Origin: Myceligenerans salitolerans | GTDB taxonomy: Bacteria > Actinomycetota > Actinomycetes > Actinomycetales > Cellulomonadaceae | DNA: 64,000 nt | Reading direction: 5' to 3' | Assembly: GCF_017349295.1 (NCBI RefSeq) | Contig: NZ_JAFMPK010000027.1 | Span: 216,839-280,838, forward strand | Translations under genes and position numbers: made by a program | Notes under the pieces: model-generated | Databases searched by the model: none | What the model was told of the DNA's origin: nothing | What the model saw: the letters and a program-made list of their open reading frames with translations, nothing else | Part shown: one piece after another, positions 587 to 9,852 of the stretch | Numbering within the stretch: position 1 is the first letter of the stretch | Layout: each line of letters starts with the position of its first letter

Positions 587-1975
587 CTATCCGGCGGGCG
601 GCGGGCTGCCGTTGACGGACTCGTGCCCCGGCGGCACGTCCGGCCTGGTCGCCGTGACGTCCCGGGGAATCATCGTGAAGCCCTGCCAGTGGGACTCCAT
701 CGGACTCTGGTCCTCGTCCCGCGGCACGTGGTGGAAGCCGACCGCCACCCAGGCCACGACGTCGTCGAGCACCTCGCGGTCCGACACGTAGTCCGGTACG
801 CCGCGGCCGCAGTGGCCGTCGCGGTTCGCCGTCGCGAACAGCTGGCAGTCCGTCGCCTCGGTGAACGCGATGTCGTAGCCCCCGTGCTCGTGCCCGTCGT
901 CACGGGTGAACGTGAACGACGACGACGCTCCCAGACCGATCTCGTAGCTGACGGGGTGCCCGTCCTCGTTCAGACGAGCGGGGTTCAGCACGCGCCACCA
1001 GCGACGGTTTCCCATCTCGCGGGTGCCCTCACGCTCGATCGCCTGCAGGCTTCCGGCCACGACGCGGGACTTCGGCCCCATCTCGTCCGTGTCCCGGGCG
1101 TCGTACTGCTCGACGCGCTGCCCGCCGCGCCCGCCGAGTGCCCAGTGCACCTTCCACACCGCGTTGTGCGAGTGGCTCGCGGCGTGGTGGTGATCGCCCT
1201 CCCCGACAGCCCAGCCGTGCGCCTTGTCGGTGTAGTCCGCGGGTGACAGGTCCCCGGTGGCACCCAGCTCCGGGGTGATCGATCCGTCCGCGCCGAACGT
1301 GTACTGCGTGACGTACTCGTACCAGCCGACCTTCGACACGGTCGACAGCCGCAGGTCCGTCCGGCGTTCCACCACCGCCTCCGCTCCCGGCGTGTCGGCG
1401 GTCGCGTGGTACGCGATGCCGCCGTCGACGGTCTCCCGGCACAGCACCTCACGCGTCTCGACGCCGCCCACGCTGCCGTCCCCGACCAGGGGCACGTCCG
1501 CCGTGACGCGCTCCCCGCCGCACGACTTCTCGCCGAGCGTGAGCATCGACCGCCCGCCGAACCCCTGGGCCGTGATGTCCTCGGTGGTGCGCACACCCGT
1601 GTCGTACGGCACCTCGAGCTGTCCGATCGTCAGCGAGGCCAGGACCTGCATCTGCTTGTGCCCGGCGGGCGCGAACGTCACGTCCTCCAGCACGAGCCCG
1701 GTGTTGTGATCGACGCGCCAGCACATCGTCCAGGCCGAACCGCTGCTGAGGACCTGGGTGATCGGCGCGTTCTCGGCGCACTCCGGCTCCTCCACCGCCG
1801 CCGACGACACCGCTCCCGCCCGGGGCGCTCGCTCGCCCCCCGTGGTCGCACCGGCCGACACCACCAGCAGCGTGATCGCCACCGCGGCGATGGCGGCCAG
1901 GCAGACCACCATGACCGCCACCATCCCTCTCTGACCCGGCCACGACCGCCGTCGTGCGCCGCTCTGTTCCGGCAC
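587..1975 (-). CDS. Membrane-anchored, shortened copper amine oxidase-like protein
   Basis: 462 residues with one N-terminal membrane segment (about residues 18-42) after a basic stretch, so the rest is probably outside the membrane. Segments align by eye with the catalytic barrel of copper amine oxidases: LEVPYDTG near 120, KVGWYEYVTQYTF near 215-227 followed by DGSITPELGATG, HSH at 268-270, RRWWRVLNP near 324, and FHHVPRDEDQSPMESHWQGF near 415-433. The three copper-ligand histidines would be His268, His270 and His429, and Tyr219 sits where the topaquinone precursor tyrosine lies. The residue before that tyrosine, normally Asn, is Trp218. The usual N-terminal N2/N3 domains are absent and length is about two thirds of the family norm. 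It may be a minimal oxidase or a non-catalytic relative. GTG start chosen; an internal ATG at 1924 is possible. Confidence 0.7.
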   Translation of the reverse strand: MPEQSGARRRSWPGQRGMVAVMVVCLAAIAAVAITLLVVSAGATTGGERAPRAGAVSSAAVEEPECAENAPITQVLSSGSAWTMCWRVDHNTGLVLEDVTFAPAGHKQMQVLASLTIGQLEVPYDTGVRTTEDITAQGFGGRSMLTLGEKSCGGERVTADVPLVGDGSVGGVETREVLCRETVDGGIAYHATADTPGAEAVVERRTDLRLSTVSKVGWYEYVTQYTFGADGSITPELGATGDLSPADYTDKAHGWAVGEGDHHHAASHSHNAVWKVHWALGGRGGQRVEQYDARDTDEMGPKSRVVAGSLQAIEREGTREMGNRRWWRVLNPARLNEDGHPVSYEIGLGASSSFTFTRDDGHEHGGYDIAFTEATDCQLFATANRDGHCGRGVPDYVSDREVLDDVVAWVAVGFHHVPRDEDQSPMESHWQGFTMIPRDVTATRPDVPPGHESVNGSPPPAG

Positions 1976-2035
1976 CCTTCTACCCCCTGAAAGATCGCTA
2001 CGGGCCCCCTGCCCTCACCGATCTTGAGGCACGGA

Positions 2036-2122
2036 CCGGCCCGGCGCGACTCACGTCACACCGGGCCGGCATCTCTCCCGTGGTGGCCCGGGCCGCCGAC
2101 CGCCGTGCGGTCAGCGGCCCGG
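2036..2122 (-). terminator. Tandem hairpins downstream of the surface-protein gene
   Basis: Two inverted repeats follow the stop codon of the large surface-protein gene. The nearer one (2088-2122) pairs CCGGGCCGC and GACCGC with GCGGTC and GCGGCCCGG, with one C-A mismatch and a three-base loop. The farther one (2036-2044 with 2061-2069) has a 9-bp stem. No U-run follows, as is common for actinobacterial terminators. Confidence 0.6.
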
Positions 2123-2130
2123 ACGGTCCG

Positions 2131-5100
2131 TCACCGGCGGCTCATCACCTGCCGCCGCCGGACCAGCACCGCACCAGCTGCGAGCAGCAGGAACGACAGC
2201 GCCGCGAGCATCGACGCGTCCGAGCCGGTCGCGGCGAGGTGACCCCCGCCGTTGCCGCTGCCCGAGGTGCCGTTGCCCGAGGTGCCGTTGCCGTCGGTGC
2301 CGTTGCCGTCGCCCGCGCCGTTGCCGTCGTCGCCGGAGCCGTTGCCGTCCCCGTCGCCGTCGTCGCACTCGCAGTCGCCGTTCCCGTCACCGTTGCCGTT
2401 GTCGTCGTGGACGACGACGTCGAAGCCGGCGATGGCGTGGTCACCGTGGACGGTGCTCGTCGCGATGCCCACGTGCGGACCTGCGGCGAAGTCGGCGGGA
2501 ACCGTGAAGGTCCAGCTGACGACGCCCTCCTCGTCCGCCGCCGTGCCCTGCAGGGCGATCGGCGACGAGTGGATGAGTCCGACGACGACCTCGCCCGGCT
2601 CGAAGCCCGACGCGTAGAACGTCTGGCTGTCACCCGGCTCGACCGTGCCGTGCTCGAACCACGCGTCCAGGGCACGGGCCACGCCTTCCGGACCGCAGAC
2701 CGCGATCGGCACCGAGGCGCCGTCACCGCCGTCCTCCGGCGTGGCGATGATCTCGTGCAGACCCGGGTCCGAGCCTTCCGGCACCGTGATCGTCACCTGG
2801 AAACCGCACTGCTCGTTCACGGTGACCATGACCGGGTCGCCCAAGGGCTCCCCGTCCGGGCCGTAGAGCTGCACCTCGACCTCGGCGCCGGCCTCGAAGC
2901 CCATACCGGTGACGAGCACGTCGTCGCCGACCGTCACGACCTCGGTCGTGGCGAACAGGGCCGGGTCGGAGCAGACGTCGCCGCCCCCGTCGCCGGGCGT
3001 CACGTAGATCATCGTGGTGGCCTCGAGACCAGTGGTCTCGTCGACCCCGACGACCGTGTACGGACCGGTCTCGGCATCCGCCGGCACGTTCAGCGGCATG
3101 ACGAACGTTCCGTCGTCCTCCGCCTCGAACGGCTCCGGCTCACCGAGCACGTTCCCGTCCTGGTCCATCAGGTACAGGGTCACCATGCCGTTCGGCGTGT
3201 AGCCCGTACCGGTGATCTCCGTGGAGTCGCCGGGAGCGACCTCGACCGGGTCGGCCGTGATGGCCGGGTCGACGTCACCGGAACCGCCGTCACCGTCGGT
3301 CACCGTCAGCGGTGCTTCCGCCGGGGTTCCCGTGGTGTCGTCGGTACCGACGACCGTGTGGTCGCCTGGCTCGGCGTCCTCCGGAACGGTCAGCGACACG
3401 GTGAACATGCCGTTCTCGTCCGTCGGAACATCCTCGACCGGGTCACCCACGGGGTTGCCGTCGGCGTCGACCAGCTGCACGGTCACCGTGCTGTCCGGCG
3501 TGTACCCCTCACCGGTCACCTCCGTGGACTCACCCGCGGCAACCTCCGACGGGTCCACCGACAGCGTCGGGTCGATCCCGTCCACCGGCGTCACCGTCAA
3601 CGGCGTGTCCGCCGCGATCCCGGTGGTGTCGTCCGTGCCGATCACGGTGTACTCGCCCGGCTCGGTCTCCTCCATGATCACGGCGGGAAGCACGAAGCTG
3701 CCCGTCTCGTCCGTGGCGGCGGTCACCGGGTCACCGACGGGGTTGCCGTCGGGGTCGACGAGCTGGATCGTCACCGTGCTGTCGGGGGTGTACCCGTCAC
3801 CGATGATGTCCGTGGTGTCGCCGGGCGCCACCACGTCCGGGTCGGCGACGATCGTCGGGCTGATGTCGCCCTCCGGGTTCACCGTCAGCGGGGTCTCCGC
3901 GGGCGTGCCGGTCTCGTCGTCCGTGCCGATCACCGTGTAGTCACCCGGCTCGGCGTCCTCCGGAACACACAGGTCCACGGTGAACGCACCGGTCTCGTCG
4001 GTCTCGGCCGTGACCGGGTCACCCACCGGGTTGCCGTCGGCATCCGTCAGCTGCACCGTCACCGTCGAGTTCGGCGTGTAGCCCTCACCCGACACCACGG
4101 TGCACTCACCGGGGTCGACCACGGTCGGGTCCACCGAGATCGACGGCGTGATGCCGTCGACCGGCGTCACCGTCAGCGGAGCCTCCGCCGGGGTGCCCGT
4201 GGTGTCGTCGGTACCGACCACCGTGTAGTCGCCCGGCTCGGCGTCCTCAGGCACGCACAGGTCCGCGGTGAACGCACCCGTCTCGTCCGTCGGGGCGGTG
4301 ACCGGGTCACCCACCGGGTTGCCGTCGGCGTCGGTGAGCTGGATCGTCACCGTGCTGTCCGGCGTGTACCCCTCACCGGTCACCACGGTGCACTCACCGG
4401 GGGCGACCTCGGTCGGGTCGACGGCGATCGTCGGCTCGACGGGGGCCGGCGTCACGGTCAGCGGGGTCTCCGCGGGCGTACCGGTCTCGTCGTCCGTGCC
4501 GATCACCGTGTACTCGCCCGGCGCCGTGTCCTCCGGCACGCACAGGTCCACGGTGAACGCACCCGTGTCGTCGGTCTCGGCCGTGACCGGGTCACCGATG
4601 GGGTTGCCGTCGGCATCCGTCAGCTGCACCGTCACCGTCGAGTTCGGCGTGTATCCCTCACCCGACACCACGGTGCACTCACCGGGGGCGACCTCGGTCG
4701 GGTCCACCGTGATCGTCGGCGTGATCGCGTCCACCGGCGTCACGGTCAGCGGGGTCTCCGCGGGCGTACCGGTCTCGTCGTCCGTGCCGATCACCGTGTA
4801 GTCGCCCGGCTCGGCGTCCTCCGGAACACACAGGTCCACGGTGAACGCACCCGTCTCGTCCGTCTCGGCCGTGACCGGGTCACCCACCGGGTTGCCGTCG
4901 GCGTCCGTCAGCTGCACCGTCACCGTCGAGTTCGGCGTGTAGCCCTCACCCGACACCACGGTGCACTCACCCGGAGCGACCACGGTCGGGTCGACCGTGA
5001 TCGACGGCGTGATCGCGTCCACCGGCTGGATCACGACAGGCGTCTCGGCCGGGGTCCCGGTCTCGTCGTCCGTGCCGATGATCGTGTAGTCGCCGGGCGG

Positions 5101-6930
5101 AGTGTCCGGAGTCGTGCAGAGATCGATCGTGAACGCGCCGTCCGCGTCCGTCTCCGCCGTGATCGGGTCGCCCACGGGGTTGCCGTCGGCGTCGGTGAGC
5201 TGCACCGTCACGGTGCTGTCTGGGGTGTACCCCTCACCGGACACCACCGTGCACTCACCCGCCGGGAACTCCGTCGGGTCGGCAGTGATGACCGGCTCGA
5301 TGGCGGCCAGTCCGCAGGCGTCGATCCGGACACCGGAGTTGCCCAGCCCGATGCTCCCCAACTCGCCCTGCATGAGGCCCAGCCAGAGGGCCGACACCTC
5401 GAGCGACGCGAGCGCTTCCTCACCCGTGTCGGTCGTACAGGTCGCGGTCTCCTGGTGGTTGATCTGCAGGGAGATGAACTGCGTGATCACGTCGAACACC
5501 GGCGACAGCGCGGTGCCGATGGTCTCGGTCACGAGTCCGGTCTTGATGTCGGTGATCAACAGCTCGAACACCTGGGCGCCCTCATCGCTGATGAGGAAGT
5601 CGTACACCGTTGCGAAGATCGGCGTCAGCAGCGCGCCCGAGGTGTTGATCGTCGTGGCCAGCAGCTGGCACGTGACGGCGGCGGTACCGCTGCAGTTCTG
5701 CTCGACCGGCGGGAAGTCGCCGCTGGCCGCGTCCGCGAGGTTGACCGTCCACGACACGTCGAACACGTCGCCGGGAAGCGGGCCCGTCCCGAGGAACTGG
5801 CAGCTGATCGAGACGGCGCTCAGCGACTCCTCGATGGCGGTCGTCATGATCTGCACGGCCTCCTCCATCAGCTCGTGCACGCCCTCGGCGATCTGCGGGT
5901 ACGTCTGGTCGTCGATGACCTCGTAGTTGGGCGCGAGGCCGTTCATACCGGCGTCGTCACCACCCGCCCAGGGGTCGTTGCCCTCGACCAGGTGCTCCAG
6001 GTGGATCTCCGCCTGGCCCGTCGAGAAGTCGATCGTCACCAGCTGGTTCGCCGACGTGAGCGGCTCCCCCACCACGGCGTTGACGATCGTCTCCTGCATG
6101 TTCGAGTCGACGGAGCACTCCGGGGTCGGAACGCCCGGGAGGTCGAGCGCACCGACGAGTGCGGTGACGTCGAACACCTGGTTGACCAGGTCCTCGGCCG
6201 TCGTGTCCACCAGGGCGCCCAGGTCGTAGATCTGCGCGGCGGCGTCCTCGATCAGCGGGGAGTGCATCAGCAGCGATGCGTCACCCAGGACGTACTGCCC
6301 CGGGCCGGTCACCCCGCCGTCCGGGTCGAGGAAGACGCCGTCCTCCGCGATCACCTCGGAACCCAGCGCACCGAGCTGGAGGTCGAGCTGGTCGACCGCG
6401 AGGTCGGTGATCCCGCCCACGCCGGCAGTGTCCGCGAGCGCGAGCAGGTCGAGCGTCGTCGTCCCCCAGTCGCCCTCGGCGGTGCCGTCGATGGTCACGC
6501 CGCCGTCGGGACCGATCACGCCGGTCGCTGCCCGGGCGTCGGTCGGCGAACTGGCCTCGCTCGTGCTGGCGAGTGCCCCGAGCTGTCCCAGATCCATGAA
6601 CTGGTCGACCGGGATCGCGATGTCTCCCAGCGAGAGCAGCTGGGATCCGAGCAGGTCGACGTCCAGGTTCTCGGTGTTGGGTCCCGGGTCGGTGTCCCAG
6701 CCCGCGACCGAGGTGGCGGCGCCGAGGAGCTCTTGTTCCATGAGCTCCGAGTTCAGGACACTGGCCCCGGCCTCAGCGGGGTCGTCGGGGTAGGTGTCGA
6801 GCGCCGCCTGTGCGGGGACGCTCAAGCCGGCGACCAGCAGCGCGGCGCCAGCGCCGATTGCGACCGGGCGCTGCCATCTGGCGCGACCTCGCAATCTGTG
6901 TCGTCGTGGAGACAACGGTGTTCGCCTCAA
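2131..6930 (-). CDS. Giant sortase-anchored surface protein with Ig-like repeats (choice-of-anchor G type)
   Basis: 1599 residues. It has a signal peptide (basic n-region, hydrophobic core near 23-37, cleavage after AQA near 42), then a globular region to about residue 540 that resembles the N-terminal domain of choice-of-anchor G family proteins. About ten Ig-like repeats of 90-98 residues follow (from about 543 to 1500), with the recurrent core GEGYTPDSTVTVQLTDADG and DPVTAETDETGAF. A Gly/Asn/Asp-rich linker precedes an LAATG sortase motif near 1565, a hydrophobic span and a basic tail. It should be covalently attached to the cell wall and act in adhesion or cell-surface interaction (inference). 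Start is TTG at 6930, nine bases after GGAG. The first five repeats carry paired cysteines and the later ones do not. Confidence 0.9.
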   Translation of the reverse strand: MRRTPLSPRRHRLRGRARWQRPVAIGAGAALLVAGLSVPAQAALDTYPDDPAEAGASVLNSELMEQELLGAATSVAGWDTDPGPNTENLDVDLLGSQLLSLGDIAIPVDQFMDLGQLGALASTSEASSPTDARAATGVIGPDGGVTIDGTAEGDWGTTTLDLLALADTAGVGGITDLAVDQLDLQLGALGSEVIAEDGVFLDPDGGVTGPGQYVLGDASLLMHSPLIEDAAAQIYDLGALVDTTAEDLVNQVFDVTALVGALDLPGVPTPECSVDSNMQETIVNAVVGEPLTSANQLVTIDFSTGQAEIHLEHLVEGNDPWAGGDDAGMNGLAPNYEVIDDQTYPQIAEGVHELMEEAVQIMTTAIEESLSAVSISCQFLGTGPLPGDVFDVSWTVNLADAASGDFPPVEQNCSGTAAVTCQLLATTINTSGALLTPIFATVYDFLISDEGAQVFELLITDIKTGLVTETIGTALSPVFDVITQFISLQINHQETATCTTDTGEEALASLEVSALWLGLMQGELGSIGLGNSGVRIDACGLAAIEPVITADPTEFPAGECTVVSGEGYTPDSTVTVQLTDADGNPVGDPITAETDADGAFTIDLCTTPDTPPGDYTIIGTDDETGTPAETPVVIQPVDAITPSITVDPTVVAPGECTVVSGEGYTPNSTVTVQLTDADGNPVGDPVTAETDETGAFTVDLCVPEDAEPGDYTVIGTDDETGTPAETPLTVTPVDAITPTITVDPTEVAPGECTVVSGEGYTPNSTVTVQLTDADGNPIGDPVTAETDDTGAFTVDLCVPEDTAPGEYTVIGTDDETGTPAETPLTVTPAPVEPTIAVDPTEVAPGECTVVTGEGYTPDSTVTIQLTDADGNPVGDPVTAPTDETGAFTADLCVPEDAEPGDYTVVGTDDTTGTPAEAPLTVTPVDGITPSISVDPTVVDPGECTVVSGEGYTPNSTVTVQLTDADGNPVGDPVTAETDETGAFTVDLCVPEDAEPGDYTVIGTDDETGTPAETPLTVNPEGDISPTIVADPDVVAPGDTTDIIGDGYTPDSTVTIQLVDPDGNPVGDPVTAATDETGSFVLPAVIMEETEPGEYTVIGTDDTTGIAADTPLTVTPVDGIDPTLSVDPSEVAAGESTEVTGEGYTPDSTVTVQLVDADGNPVGDPVEDVPTDENGMFTVSLTVPEDAEPGDHTVVGTDDTTGTPAEAPLTVTDGDGGSGDVDPAITADPVEVAPGDSTEITGTGYTPNGMVTLYLMDQDGNVLGEPEPFEAEDDGTFVMPLNVPADAETGPYTVVGVDETTGLEATTMIYVTPGDGGGDVCSDPALFATTEVVTVGDDVLVTGMGFEAGAEVEVQLYGPDGEPLGDPVMVTVNEQCGFQVTITVPEGSDPGLHEIIATPEDGGDGASVPIAVCGPEGVARALDAWFEHGTVEPGDSQTFYASGFEPGEVVVGLIHSSPIALQGTAADEEGVVSWTFTVPADFAAGPHVGIATSTVHGDHAIAGFDVVVHDDNGNGDGNGDCECDDGDGDGNGSGDDGNGAGDGNGTDGNGTSGNGTSGSGNGGGHLAATGSDASMLAALSFLLLAAGAVLVRRRQVMSRR
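2236..2410 (-). repeat. Low-complexity tandem repeat encoding the wall-spanning Gly/Asn/Asp linker
   Basis: Short 12-18 base units built on GCCGTTGCC recur across this stretch and encode NGTSGNGTSG / GDGNG-type linker sequence just before the sortase motif. Such arrays change length easily by slippage and would set how far the repeats stand off from the wall. Confidence 0.7.
2950..5300 (-). repeat. Tandem Ig-like coding repeats, unit about 285 bases
   Basis: Within the surface-protein gene at least eight nearly co-linear units of about 95 codons are visible, each with GEGYTPxSTVTVQL and DADGNPVGDPV cores. Units starting near 5015, 4730, 4443 and 4150 are very similar at DNA level, which suggests recent internal duplication or gene conversion. 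Two more diverged units lie on the C-terminal side. Confidence 0.85.
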
Positions 6931-7247: not shown

Positions 7248-9689
7248 CTACACCTCGGCGGACGCCCACCTCGGCGGGCATTCCTCCGCGAGGCGGATGA
7301 GGTCCCTCCGGTCGCGGATGCCCAGTCGGTGGTACACCTGCCGCAGCCGGTTGACGACGGTCCGCTCGGACACGAACACGGACTCGGCGATCTTCGAGTT
7401 CGTGGCGCCCTTCAGGGCGAGCCGCACCATGGTGCGCTCGTCCCGGCGGAGCCCCTCCCACCGGTTGCTCGCCACCGCGCCTCCCGAAGCGGTCTGCGCC
7501 GTGTCGATCCCGCGGGTCCATCCCGCCAGCCCGGCCAGCTGCGCGAGGGTCCGTGCGCGGTCGAAGGCGGCCACCGCGACACCGGCGTCCCCTCGTCCCG
7601 CGCGGAAGCGCCCGTAGGCCACGAGCGTCCGCACGTGCTGGCGGATCGAGGCCGGAGGGGTCGAGGCCCGAACCGCCTCGTCGAAGGCGACGAGCGCCCG
7701 GTCGCCGTCCGCGAGCAACGCGGCACCGCGCGCGCCGGCGGCCCGGAGGTCCGCCGACAGGGCGCCGCACTCGGTGACCCCGGCACCGCCGGTGACGGCG
7801 GGAACCGCCTGCACGTCACCCGCGGCCACCGCCGCGTCCACCAGATCGGCACGGACCATGACGGGGCACTGGTACGGCCATCGGCACTGCTCGACGGAGA
7901 CGGCCAGGAGCGACACGGCTTCTCGCGCACGCCCCAGGAGCAGATGGGCGGCCCCGACGTCGGCGGCGAACTCCGCCGCGGCGCGCGCGGACCAGTTGCC
8001 GAGAACCTCGGGGACGCCGACGTCCGGGACGCGTCCGTCGATGGCCGCGTCGGCGAGGGCCGTCAGTCCCCGGAGCACCAGCCACCCGTCGCAGCCGGGG
8101 CGCAGCCGGCGGACCGCGTCGAGATGACGGCGCACATCATGGAACTGTCCCTCGACCGCCGCGACCATGGCGGCGCTGAGACTTCGCGCGACCTGCTCGG
8201 CCGCGCCCCGGGCGTCGTCGTCCACGTGCGCCGCCACCAGTGCCCGCGCGCCGGACACGTCACCGAGCATGAGCCGCATCCGTGTCTGCAGGTGCAGTCC
8301 CAGCCAGTGCTGGCCGGAGGTCTCGCCGATGGTTTCCAGGTCGGCACGCAGCTGATCCGGGTCCTGCACCACGCCCTCGGCCTCGACCGCCAGTGCGGCG
8401 GCTGCCAGGCGGCCGGACGCGGCGCGCACCGCCTCACCGAGCCCCGGGGTCGCGCGCCACCAGACGTGGTCGGCCCACTCCCGGCAGTCGGTGACACCCG
8501 CCGACCCGCCCCGCGGGATACCCCATGTCTGCCCTGTCAGCACCGACATGGTGAATGCCAGGGCACGGTTGTTCGGGCATTCCACCGACAGGGGCCCTGC
8601 CCGCAGCACGGGGTTGAGCTCCTGCATGTGCAGCCCGCGCAGCATCGCCTCGCTCCTGCGCTCCGCCGTCGGCACGGCCGGCCGCCCGATCCCGCTCCGC
8701 TCCGCGCAAAGCACCGCGGCCAGCGGATGGCGCAGGAACCAGGTGCCGGCGCGCAGCTCGACAAGACCCCGCTCGGCAAGCCGGCCGAGAGTCGGGTCGT
8801 CGCCGAGGCCCTCGGCGCCGTCCCACGGCTCCTCGCCGAGCCCGGACCCGGACTGGCGCATCACGAGCGAGGCCAGGAGGTCAGCCCCCGGCTCGTCGAT
8901 GCCCTCGAGCGCGTGGCGATAAGTGCGGCGCGCCGCGGAGCCAGCACTGTCGGGACCGTGCCAGAGCGCCCCACCGCGCAGCTGCGCCACGGACAGGTCC
9001 TGGGCCAGCTCCAGGGCGAGCCGGGGGTTGCCCGCACTCCACCAGGTGATCCGCTCCACGACATCCGCCGCGATGGACAGGCCGAGCGCGTCGGTGAGGA
9101 ACTGACGCAGTGCGGGTGGGGCGAGCGGGCCGAGGCGCAGGACGTCGAGCTCGTCCGGGAGTGCGCCGGGCGCGAGCTCCTCCGCGGCGACGACCAACCG
9201 GCAGTCCAGCGCGAACGCCTCGTCGGCCAGGTGCTGCAGCCATGCGAGCCGCTCCTCGGTCAGCACTCCGGCGTCGTCGACGAACACCACGCGCGGGACC
9301 GCTGCGCCGAGGTTCGCCGTCAAGCTCTCGAAGAACCCGGTCGCGGCGCTGACATCGGCGCCGGACGGCACGACGGTGAGTTCGGAGCGCTCCGTGTCAC
9401 CGAGAAATCGTGCGTGCGGGCGACGGGACCAGATCCTCTGCACGCGGAGCACGGGGATGTCCGGGCCCAGCGCGCGCAGCGCGTGCATGACCGTCGCGGT
9501 CTTCCCGGATCCGCTCGGCCCGACCACCATCAATGTCCGGGGATCGATCTCCGATGCGACCCCGGCAATGGTCCGCATTTCTCGGTCTCGTCCGTGAAGT
9601 CCGTATTCGCGCACGTTCTCCGTCGTCATGCCGGCGATCTGTCGAGGCTCACCATCGAGCACCCGAGGTGATACCGTCCGTGTCCTCAC
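7248..9689 (-). CDS. Large ATP-binding LuxR-family (LAL/MalT-like) transcriptional regulator
   Basis: About 813 residues from the chosen GTG start. Near the N-terminus is a P-loop, GPSGSGKT, followed by a Walker B-like VVFVDDAG. A long helical middle region with ATPase/TPR-like character follows, and a C-terminal LuxR helix-turn-helix (LALKGATNSKIAESVFVSER and following residues). This is the layout of LAL/MalT-type activators, which couple nucleotide and ligand binding to DNA binding. The start at 9689 has AGGGGG nine bases upstream; an ATG at 9629, directly before TENVREYGLHGRD, is the alternative. The surface-protein gene lies immediately downstream on the same strand, separated by an AT-richer gap, so it is a reasonable target or neighbour (inference). 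The ligand is not known. Confidence 0.88.
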   Translation of the reverse strand: MRTRTVSPRVLDGEPRQIAGMTTENVREYGLHGRDREMRTIAGVASEIDPRTLMVVGPSGSGKTATVMHALRALGPDIPVLRVQRIWSRRPHARFLGDTERSELTVVPSGADVSAATGFFESLTANLGAAVPRVVFVDDAGVLTEERLAWLQHLADEAFALDCRLVVAAEELAPGALPDELDVLRLGPLAPPALRQFLTDALGLSIAADVVERITWWSAGNPRLALELAQDLSVAQLRGGALWHGPDSAGSAARRTYRHALEGIDEPGADLLASLVMRQSGSGLGEEPWDGAEGLGDDPTLGRLAERGLVELRAGTWFLRHPLAAVLCAERSGIGRPAVPTAERRSEAMLRGLHMQELNPVLRAGPLSVECPNNRALAFTMSVLTGQTWGIPRGGSAGVTDCREWADHVWWRATPGLGEAVRAASGRLAAAALAVEAEGVVQDPDQLRADLETIGETSGQHWLGLHLQTRMRLMLGDVSGARALVAAHVDDDARGAAEQVARSLSAAMVAAVEGQFHDVRRHLDAVRRLRPGCDGWLVLRGLTALADAAIDGRVPDVGVPEVLGNWSARAAAEFAADVGAAHLLLGRAREAVSLLAVSVEQCRWPYQCPVMVRADLVDAAVAAGDVQAVPAVTGGAGVTECGALSADLRAAGARGAALLADGDRALVAFDEAVRASTPPASIRQHVRTLVAYGRFRAGRGDAGVAVAAFDRARTLAQLAGLAGWTRGIDTAQTASGGAVASNRWEGLRRDERTMVRLALKGATNSKIAESVFVSERTVVNRLRQVYHRLGIRDRRDLIRLAEECPPRWASAEV

Positions 9690-9852
9690 GCGCACCCACC
9701 CCCTTTTGTGGCAGCGGTTACTTTTCCTGGGGGTGCGATGCGAGTGTATGACGAAATTGAGATCTTGCTTGGTCCATACAAGTGGTGCAGGTGGGATTAA
9801 TGGGCCCTTGCCGGAATTGTGCTCGGCATTCACGGTGCCGAGCGCGTCCCGC

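Follow-up and report, generated by a model that had tools for sequence, protein, structure and literature searches.

A minimal copper amine oxidase of Actinobacteria with a Trp-flanked cofactor site and its candidate substrate, a conserved lysine in an adjacent surface protein

Introduction

Copper amine oxidases form their cofactor topaquinone (TPQ) from a Tyr residue in the consensus T/S-x-x-N-Y-D/E. What does the Asn that precedes this Tyr contribute? In AGAO of Arthrobacter globiformis, as described in PMC9491219, the Asn side chain rests on the quinone ring, and the Asn381Ala mutant still makes TPQ, 180 times more slowly, with a kcat 1/160 of the original and a flipped ring. In HPAO-1, according to PMC3382800, Asn404Ala forms 5-10% TPQ and Asn404Asp has a two-fold lower rate. 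Since Asn-to-Ala mutants still form some TPQ, the Asn is not strictly required for cofactor formation, and the plant clade I copper amine oxidases are reported, from sequence, to lack the motif altogether (PMC12058724). The open-access literature yielded no test of an Asn-to-Trp change at the cofactor site, and open-access full text yielded no account of bacterial copper amine oxidases that are split, of the W-Y type or reduced to D4.

Two members of the family frame the present case: vascular adhesion protein-1 (AOC3) is membrane-anchored, and Pichia PPLO acts on peptidyl lysine. Bacterial lysyl oxidases of the animal-type family (PF01186) have been reported separately (PMC4448552).

Here we analyze a copper amine oxidase gene in a 64,000-nucleotide stretch of the Myceligenerans salitolerans genome (contig NZ_JAFMPK010000027.1; hereafter the window), together with related loci (L numbers) and genomes (G numbers).

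Results

A catalytic domain at the cell surface

The gene, its catalytic domain and its N-terminal hydrophobic segment are placed in the window as follows.

587..1975, minus strand: mini copper amine oxidase (mini-oxidase) gene; 462 aa, GTG start, D4 domain only
653..1735, minus strand: Cu_amine_oxid catalytic domain, residues 81-441 (PF01179 match)
1859..1915, minus strand: N-terminal hydrophobic anchor, residues 21-39 (Kyte-Doolittle mean 3.07)

The GTG start is preceded by a purine-rich stretch that the four Myceligenerans genomes compared have in common. A profile search matches the protein to Cu_amine_oxid (PF01179) with E=6.3e-34 and a score of 118 bits, the cut-off being 27, and residues 81-441 cover positions 22-401 of 407, nearly the whole catalytic profile. 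The match begins at the D4 boundary, and D2 and D3 are absent from the chain. PF01179 is the sole Pfam match at E up to 1, a threshold at which the lysyl oxidase domain PF01186 finds no match; it is matched by no other protein of the host genome, and by 15/15 members of the A1 group of mini-oxidases. The NCBIfam primary-amine oxidase model, NF008559, gives 87.5 bits, below its curated cut-off of 651. A first-pass annotation made from the sequence alone had described a membrane-tethered, reduced oxidase with an altered cofactor motif that keeps the catalytic barrel segments and lacks the N-terminal domains; the profile match, the D4-only chain with W-Y-E for N-Y-D/E, the hydrophobic segment and the anchoring signals of relatives (below) all agree with that description.

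Two AlphaFold2 models, built from 15-row family alignments, are of low confidence (pLDDT 54.5 and 59.6). The first still aligns with solved copper amine oxidases (VIA-align, ten top rows: Z 23.9-25.9, rmsd 3.9-4.7, 337-353 residues), and the second, a trimmed and likewise low-confidence model, gives Z 18.2-20.8 over its 50 rows. By title, all 50 rows in each structure list are copper amine oxidases, among which we take the PPLO row to belong. As modeled, then, the mini-oxidase has the copper amine oxidase fold over most of its domain.

In a maximum-likelihood tree of 39 mini-oxidase and 10 canonical domains, the mini-oxidases fall on one side of a single branch with a support of 100/100 (the 39 are 34 domains first gathered and 5 from genomes of another family; the canonical row L049 was omitted as incomplete). 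With the A1 profile, full-length mini-oxidases score 405-766 bits in a search of the order and 392-762 in a search of the phylum, against at most 75 and 108 bits for other matches, the exception being a mini-oxidase fragment in G264 (130 bits). The closest relatives of the window protein are from Myceligenerans (80-87% identity), and dN/dS within the genus is 0.19-0.30. Five stretches of viral contigs matched a pattern, and none was a relative.

Residues 21-39 are predicted to be a transmembrane signal anchor or, less probably, a cleaved signal peptide. A transmembrane-like segment is found in the window protein, in the Promicromonospora mini-oxidases and in some others; by pattern, 14 of the 28 rows inspected contain a lipobox and the other 14 do not; and the Motilibacter protein (L015) looks secreted. 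Six proteins (L037-L042) are extended at the C-terminus by a tail that finishes with a sortase-like signal, and the one tested (L068, from the genome of L041) has an NCBIfam sortase-type domain over the cut-off and a weak Ig-like match. That the same enzyme carries such different anchors suggests that cell-surface action is its conserved feature.

The cofactor and copper site

Alignment with canonical enzymes, including the Hansenula structure 3loy, the best solved relative, assigns the following residues.

1316..1324, minus strand: W218-Y219-E220, cofactor site (N-Y-D/E in canonical enzymes; alignment, codons)
1577..1579, minus strand: D133, aligned with the catalytic-base Asp (MAFFT and 3loy alignment)
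1604..1606, minus strand: Y124, aligned with the Tyr that hydrogen-bonds TPQ O4 (alignment)
1166..1174, minus strand: H268 and H270, predicted copper ligands 1 and 2 (alignment)
728..730, minus strand: H416, predicted copper ligand 3 (alignment)
689..691, minus strand: H429, family-specific invariant His, distinct from the canonical ligand (alignment)

The functional labels draw in part on PMC3382800 and PMC9491219. In the mini-oxidase, S-K-V-G-W-Y-E departs from the canonical consensus; the Tyr is followed by Glu-Tyr (W-Y-E-Y) in all 39 mini-oxidases aligned, and Trp replaces the Asn in every one, whereas the canonical rows have Asn (N-Y-E/D) in 11/11. Residues Y219, H268, H270, H416, Y124, D133, M426 (which aligns with a Met near the copper) and H429 are invariant in 39/39, and Trp430 next to H429 completes an extra invariant His-Trp pair that the canonical enzymes lack. 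The invariant Tyr219, copper ligands, Y124, D133 and M426 fit a working enzyme. Judged by these comparisons and by dN/dS, the conservation is far beyond chance, and the mini-oxidase is a clade-wide, surface-anchored catalytic domain with a fixed Asn-to-Trp change, not a decayed oxidase.

Two earlier placements were revised. The H416 column, in the stretch HHVPRDED, is His in all 10 canonical enzymes that reach it, while the same 10 have D, S or E at the H429 column, which rules out H429 as a copper ligand; the eleventh canonical row, L049, ends before both columns. A single-sequence phmmer comparison with AGAO had placed the base Asp elsewhere, as if it were lost, and was overruled by the 3loy profile alignment and MAFFT. 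The first-pass annotation was therefore right in part: the open reading frame, family, anchor, Tyr219 at the TPQ position, the Trp218 before it and the H268/H270 pair (H-x-H) all stand, and its third copper His, 429, gives way to H416. The minus strand, the candidate base D133, the clade-wide fixation of Trp218 and the partner gene described below are additions to it.

A linked surface protein

Directly upstream of the oxidase gene lies the gene of a large surface protein, here called the partner.

2131..6930, minus strand: partner gene; choice-of-anchor G surface protein, Ig-like repeats, LAATG sorting signal; directly upstream of the oxidase, same strand
2035..2070, minus strand: strong hairpin between the partner and oxidase genes (z -7.0)

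The partner has 1599 residues, matches NF033766 with E=3.9e-35 (122 bits, cut-off 45) and ends in LAATG and a hydrophobic tail. An LxxTG signal is present in 22/26 partners inspected, that of Promicromonospora soli included. The other four, short partners of 547-563 aa (L056, L057, L061 and L062), have no sortase signal and keep the conserved lysine described below. A search of open-access full text found nothing containing 'choice-of-anchor G'.

A protein of the same cluster is encoded just upstream, on the same strand, in 26/26 loci of the window's branch with an intact oxidase, at a distance of 46-211 nt measured to the longest oxidase ORF. The partner N-domain is in view in 23 of the 26 (broken in L053, partial in L011); L002, L012 and L059 show the repeat part only, and for L002 and L059 an N-domain turned up elsewhere in the genome, at the edge of a contig (L139 and L093, respectively). 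Beside the oxidases of sister branches B and C the N-domain occurs in 0/12 loci, and thus oxidation of such a partner cannot be the function of the whole clade. In the order sample, 72/396 genomes encode a choice-of-anchor-G protein over the cut-off, and these include all 15/396 with a full-length oxidase of the window's branch. The pairing is therefore one-way: the oxidase goes with the partner, and not the reverse. Enzyme-linked partners score low in NF033766 (93-132 bits against up to 264 for others, some unlinked proteins also being low), and an N-domain profile gives complete close partners at least 630 bits and distant ones at most 175.

A long-stem hairpin is present in 8/8 loci folded, with a stem sequence that varies between genera and no clear T run; it could set the ratio of partner and oxidase products. 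Upstream of the window's partner, at 7248-9833 on the minus strand, is the gene of a large LuxR-type regulator (861 aa; AAA match just under the cut-off), with homologues in L004, L006, L007, L016 and L071. On the other side, a glutathione peroxidase gene (92-574) converges on the oxidase gene and ends 12 nt from it, next to an oxidase that may make H2O2; such a gene occurs in 8/35 loci and is adjacent only in the four Myceligenerans loci. In G077 the two partner copies (L053 and L142) share a break close to residue 350, in the region of a short repeat, and the mini-oxidase is intact; the breaks reflect sequencing error or a real frame change.

One lysine of the partner

5542..5544, minus strand: K463 of the partner, its only lysine (alignment, codons)

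Among 25 partners aligned there is one well conserved lysine column (22/25; the runner-up has 10/25), which in the window protein is K463 in the context D-I-K-T. Where the region is in view and the genome has an intact oxidase, the linked partner has lysine in this column in 25/25 cases. The broken partner of L053 has it too, as do L135, whose oxidase is adjacent, and L139, which lies at a contig edge. It is also present in 4/4 second copies (L136, L137, L138 and L142) from genomes that encode the mini-oxidase elsewhere, with none in the stretch fetched, which suggests that the enzyme need not be adjacent to its partner. Three of these, L136, L137 and L138, are longer copies of about 1500 aa from genomes of the window's family. 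In total, K463 is found in 32/32 close partners from genomes with an intact mini-oxidase. Each protein was counted once: L131, L132, L134, L140 and L141 repeat counted partners, L133 is the P. soli protein and L147 that of G248. L012 was left out, as its N-terminal part lies beyond the locus or contig edge; for the same reason L012 and L059 were rejected as examples without K463, and L093, from the genome of L059, has the lysine.

In the two close partners whose genomes lack an intact mini-oxidase, K463 is replaced. In P. soli (L016, genome G812) the residue is T, and the oxidase lacks residues about 99-454: at L016:6001-6285 its first ~98 residues are joined in frame to the last few codons, beside an intact partner. 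This deletion could be an assembly error. A search of the whole G812 genome returned only the fragment and a weak match of 44.6 bits in an ORF of 883 residues, presumably a canonical oxidase. In G248, of another family, the residue is L, and a whole-genome search found no mini-oxidase; its partner is 64% identical to the window's (405/636). A comparison of 236 ungapped columns gives 26 that never vary among linked partners; in these, P. soli differs at K463 only and G248 at K463 and H352 only. Well supported tree branches force two separate changes of K463. Fisher's test of K463 against mini-oxidase presence gives 0.0018, ignoring kinship, in a sample with only two enzyme-less close partners and with 32 related positives, some nearly identical.

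How far does this rule extend? From 37 regions with unlinked choice-of-anchor-G matches, 18 were dropped (no match to the first partner profile). The rest, joined by three paralogues taken from earlier loci, gave an alignment of 22 unlinked rows. Two of these are blank at the column: L111, which was read in a wrong frame, and L101, the second partner copy of G077, which is broken and is counted above as L142. Lysine occurs within 14 residues of the column in 0/20 rows, one of these being L096 of G248; distant partners thus have no lysine near the position in the remaining 19 rows, nor in L143-L146. A profile of the N-domain only finds 20/37 unlinked regions, including L111, L113 and L097, three that stand outside the column comparison. 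Because distant members without the lysine occur also in enzyme-positive genomes (e.g., G045, G360 and G794), the K463 rule is limited to close partners. Partners from Myceligenerans, Xylanimonas, Antribacter and several others contain little lysine, but it makes up 2.9-5.1% in those of the f7 genus, for which reason we rejected general lysine avoidance as a signal. Since lysine content varies by genus, the argument is the fate of one column and not a low lysine content.

Split genes in the sister branches

In 12/12 loci of branches B and C (Motilibacter, six from the window's order and five from large genomes), the oxidase gene is closely preceded, on its own strand, by a separate gene for a D2-D3-like protein of roughly 250 residues that is apparently exported; in L068 and L069 the two genes overlap by 4 nt. 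When the profile of this family is compared with one of D2-D3 from 7 canonical enzymes, the two align over 169 columns through both domains, with a score of 70, P=1.5e-9 and a probability of 96.3%. Trimmed to the mature part, the alignment scores 69.9, and the controls reach at most 18.4 (20 column-shuffled) and 11.3 (reversed). Pfam and PDB sequence searches with the 12 members did not recognize the family: AGAO-like_N2 is matched by 1/12 (E=0.13), and three other families by one member each (E 0.016-0.15). Searched against 28 genomes, the D2-D3-like profile is found in 11/11 branch B/C genomes with E below 1e-88, and its best match in the 17 window-branch genomes (E=1.1e-4, in G002) lies in frame in the N-terminal part of the canonical oxidase of G002, an independent sign of D2-D3 homology.

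Seven branch B loci share a gene downstream of the oxidase. In the two loci tested, L068 and L069, its match to DUF305 has an E value of about 1e-36, and its CopM scores of 72 and 81 bits stay below the cut-off of 90; the order in L064-L069 and L015 is D2-D3-like gene, mini-oxidase and then this gene. In Synechocystis, CopM reportedly binds Cu(I) both in the periplasm and outside the cell (PMC4335983). In L069 the next gene after the cluster encodes signal peptidase I, and L064 and L067 have a homologous gene at the same place.

Discussion

What does a minimal oxidase with a Trp-flanked cofactor site do beside a giant surface protein? We propose that the gene product is a copper amine oxidase reduced to D4, held at the membrane on the outer side of the cell, and that it belongs to a separate clade in Actinobacteria. 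In this enzyme H268, H270 and H416 would bind copper and Tyr219 would become TPQ or a close relative. The Trp probably packs beside the ring in place of the usual Asn; it could take over the restraining role of the Asn, and it may change the cofactor chemistry. The enzyme would be dedicated to the adjacent choice-of-anchor-G protein, converting K463 to the aldehyde (allysine) with release of H2O2, as animal lysyl oxidase does with collagen, and the aldehyde would then link covalently to wall amines, neighboring copies or external surfaces. Such a link would matter most in the four short partners that lack a sortase signal. That K463 is kept with the enzyme and lost with the enzyme is as a dedicated lysyl-oxidase pair predicts, and we tentatively put this best explanation at close to an even chance. 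A DUF305/CopM-like copper protein in the gene cluster of one sister branch also speaks for it. Against it stand the strongly reduced TPQ formation in the Asn-to-Ala mutants of AGAO and HPAO-1 and the small number of enzyme-less close partners, just two, one of which, G248, has also changed H352. The restriction of the K463 rule to close partners, the many further lysines in the partners of one genus, a possible docking role of K463 and a possible assembly error in P. soli count against it as well.

Would an active surface oxidase of small amines account for the same facts? Acting on polyamines, amino sugars or aromatic amines, such an enzyme would make H2O2 or ammonia, the partner would be a scaffold and K463 could be a docking residue. 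The catalytic residues kept in 39/39 suit this reading, and a chain without D2 and D3 could have a more open site and a wide substrate range. We take residues 155 and 156 of HPAO-1 to lie in D3. These residues also line its amine channel, according to PMC3382800. The convergent peroxidase gene of the window points the same way, but that neighbor is not general (8/35 loci), and small-amine oxidation by itself leaves the loss of the partner's conserved lysine with the enzyme unexplained; we regard this reading as unlikely. The first-pass annotation had suggested another use of the site, in copper binding or a structural role. A catalytically dead or merely copper-binding relative, serving the surface protein as a structural partner or copper store, would explain why Trp breaks the N-Y-D/E consensus in 39/39, and the plant clade I enzymes reported from sequence to lack the motif (PMC12058724) offer a precedent. 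Against such a relative, the precursor Tyr, the aligned base Asp, the TPQ-contact Tyr and the copper ligands are invariant across three branches, and dN/dS is 0.19-0.30. Dead enzymes usually lose some catalytic residues. Given the invariance, that use of the site is not the best reading, and we consider it quite improbable.

Finally, the correlation between K463 and the mini-oxidase might be a sampling accident, two independent chance substitutions seen against positives that are kin to one another. The two enzyme-less partners and the near identity of some of the 32 leave room for this, but of 26 invariant columns it is one and the same that changed in both cases, with a single change in the 50 chances that the other 25 offer; an accident of this kind seems very improbable to us. 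Returning to the dedicated pair, we infer enzyme activity, cofactor, substrate and aldehyde fate from a sequence record in which family, residues, anchoring signals, gene linkage and the joint retention and loss of K463 can be read directly.

A broader reading may also be drawn, which we offer as a possibility that we lean modestly against. In Actinobacteria, a minimal W-Y oxidase would form a dedicated pair with a giant, often nearly lysine-free surface protein and convert its one conserved lysine to an aldehyde, a bacterial lysyl oxidation for covalent surface cross-linking that would have evolved independently of animal lysyl oxidase and would use a Trp-flanked cofactor, derived from tyrosine and possibly altered; sister lineages would use this catalytic domain in a split, two-subunit oxidase. 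If true, bacteria use a TPQ-type oxidase to modify their own surface proteins at specific sites, in a small system in which evolution has already singled out the substrate lysine. In fixing Trp for Asn, the clade offers a natural experiment on a position that has been mutated to study TPQ biogenesis, and the gene pairs that encode D2-D3 and D4 separately suggest a divisible chain and would help to assign the roles of D2 and D3.

Comparison with known systems

With the copper amine oxidases, such as AGAO and the Hansenula enzyme 3loy, the mini-oxidase shares the catalytic domain (by profile and model) and the copper ligands, base Asp and TPQ-site Tyr (by alignment). It differs from them in the missing D2 and D3, in the Trp for Asn, in the extra His429-Trp430, in its membrane, lipid or wall anchors and in the linked surface-protein gene. 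AOC3 and PPLO belong to the same family, have chains of 735-787 residues in the PDB table and are among the weakest sequence matches to the mini-oxidase. The partner passes the curated cut-off of the choice-of-anchor G family (NF033766), but the enzyme-linked partners differ from other members in their low scores and in a lysine that is absent from 19 more distant members. Animal-type lysyl oxidase (PF01186) is of a different family, the mini-oxidase matching PF01179 only, and the two are alike in the reaction that we propose, the conversion of peptidyl lysine to allysine outside the cell.
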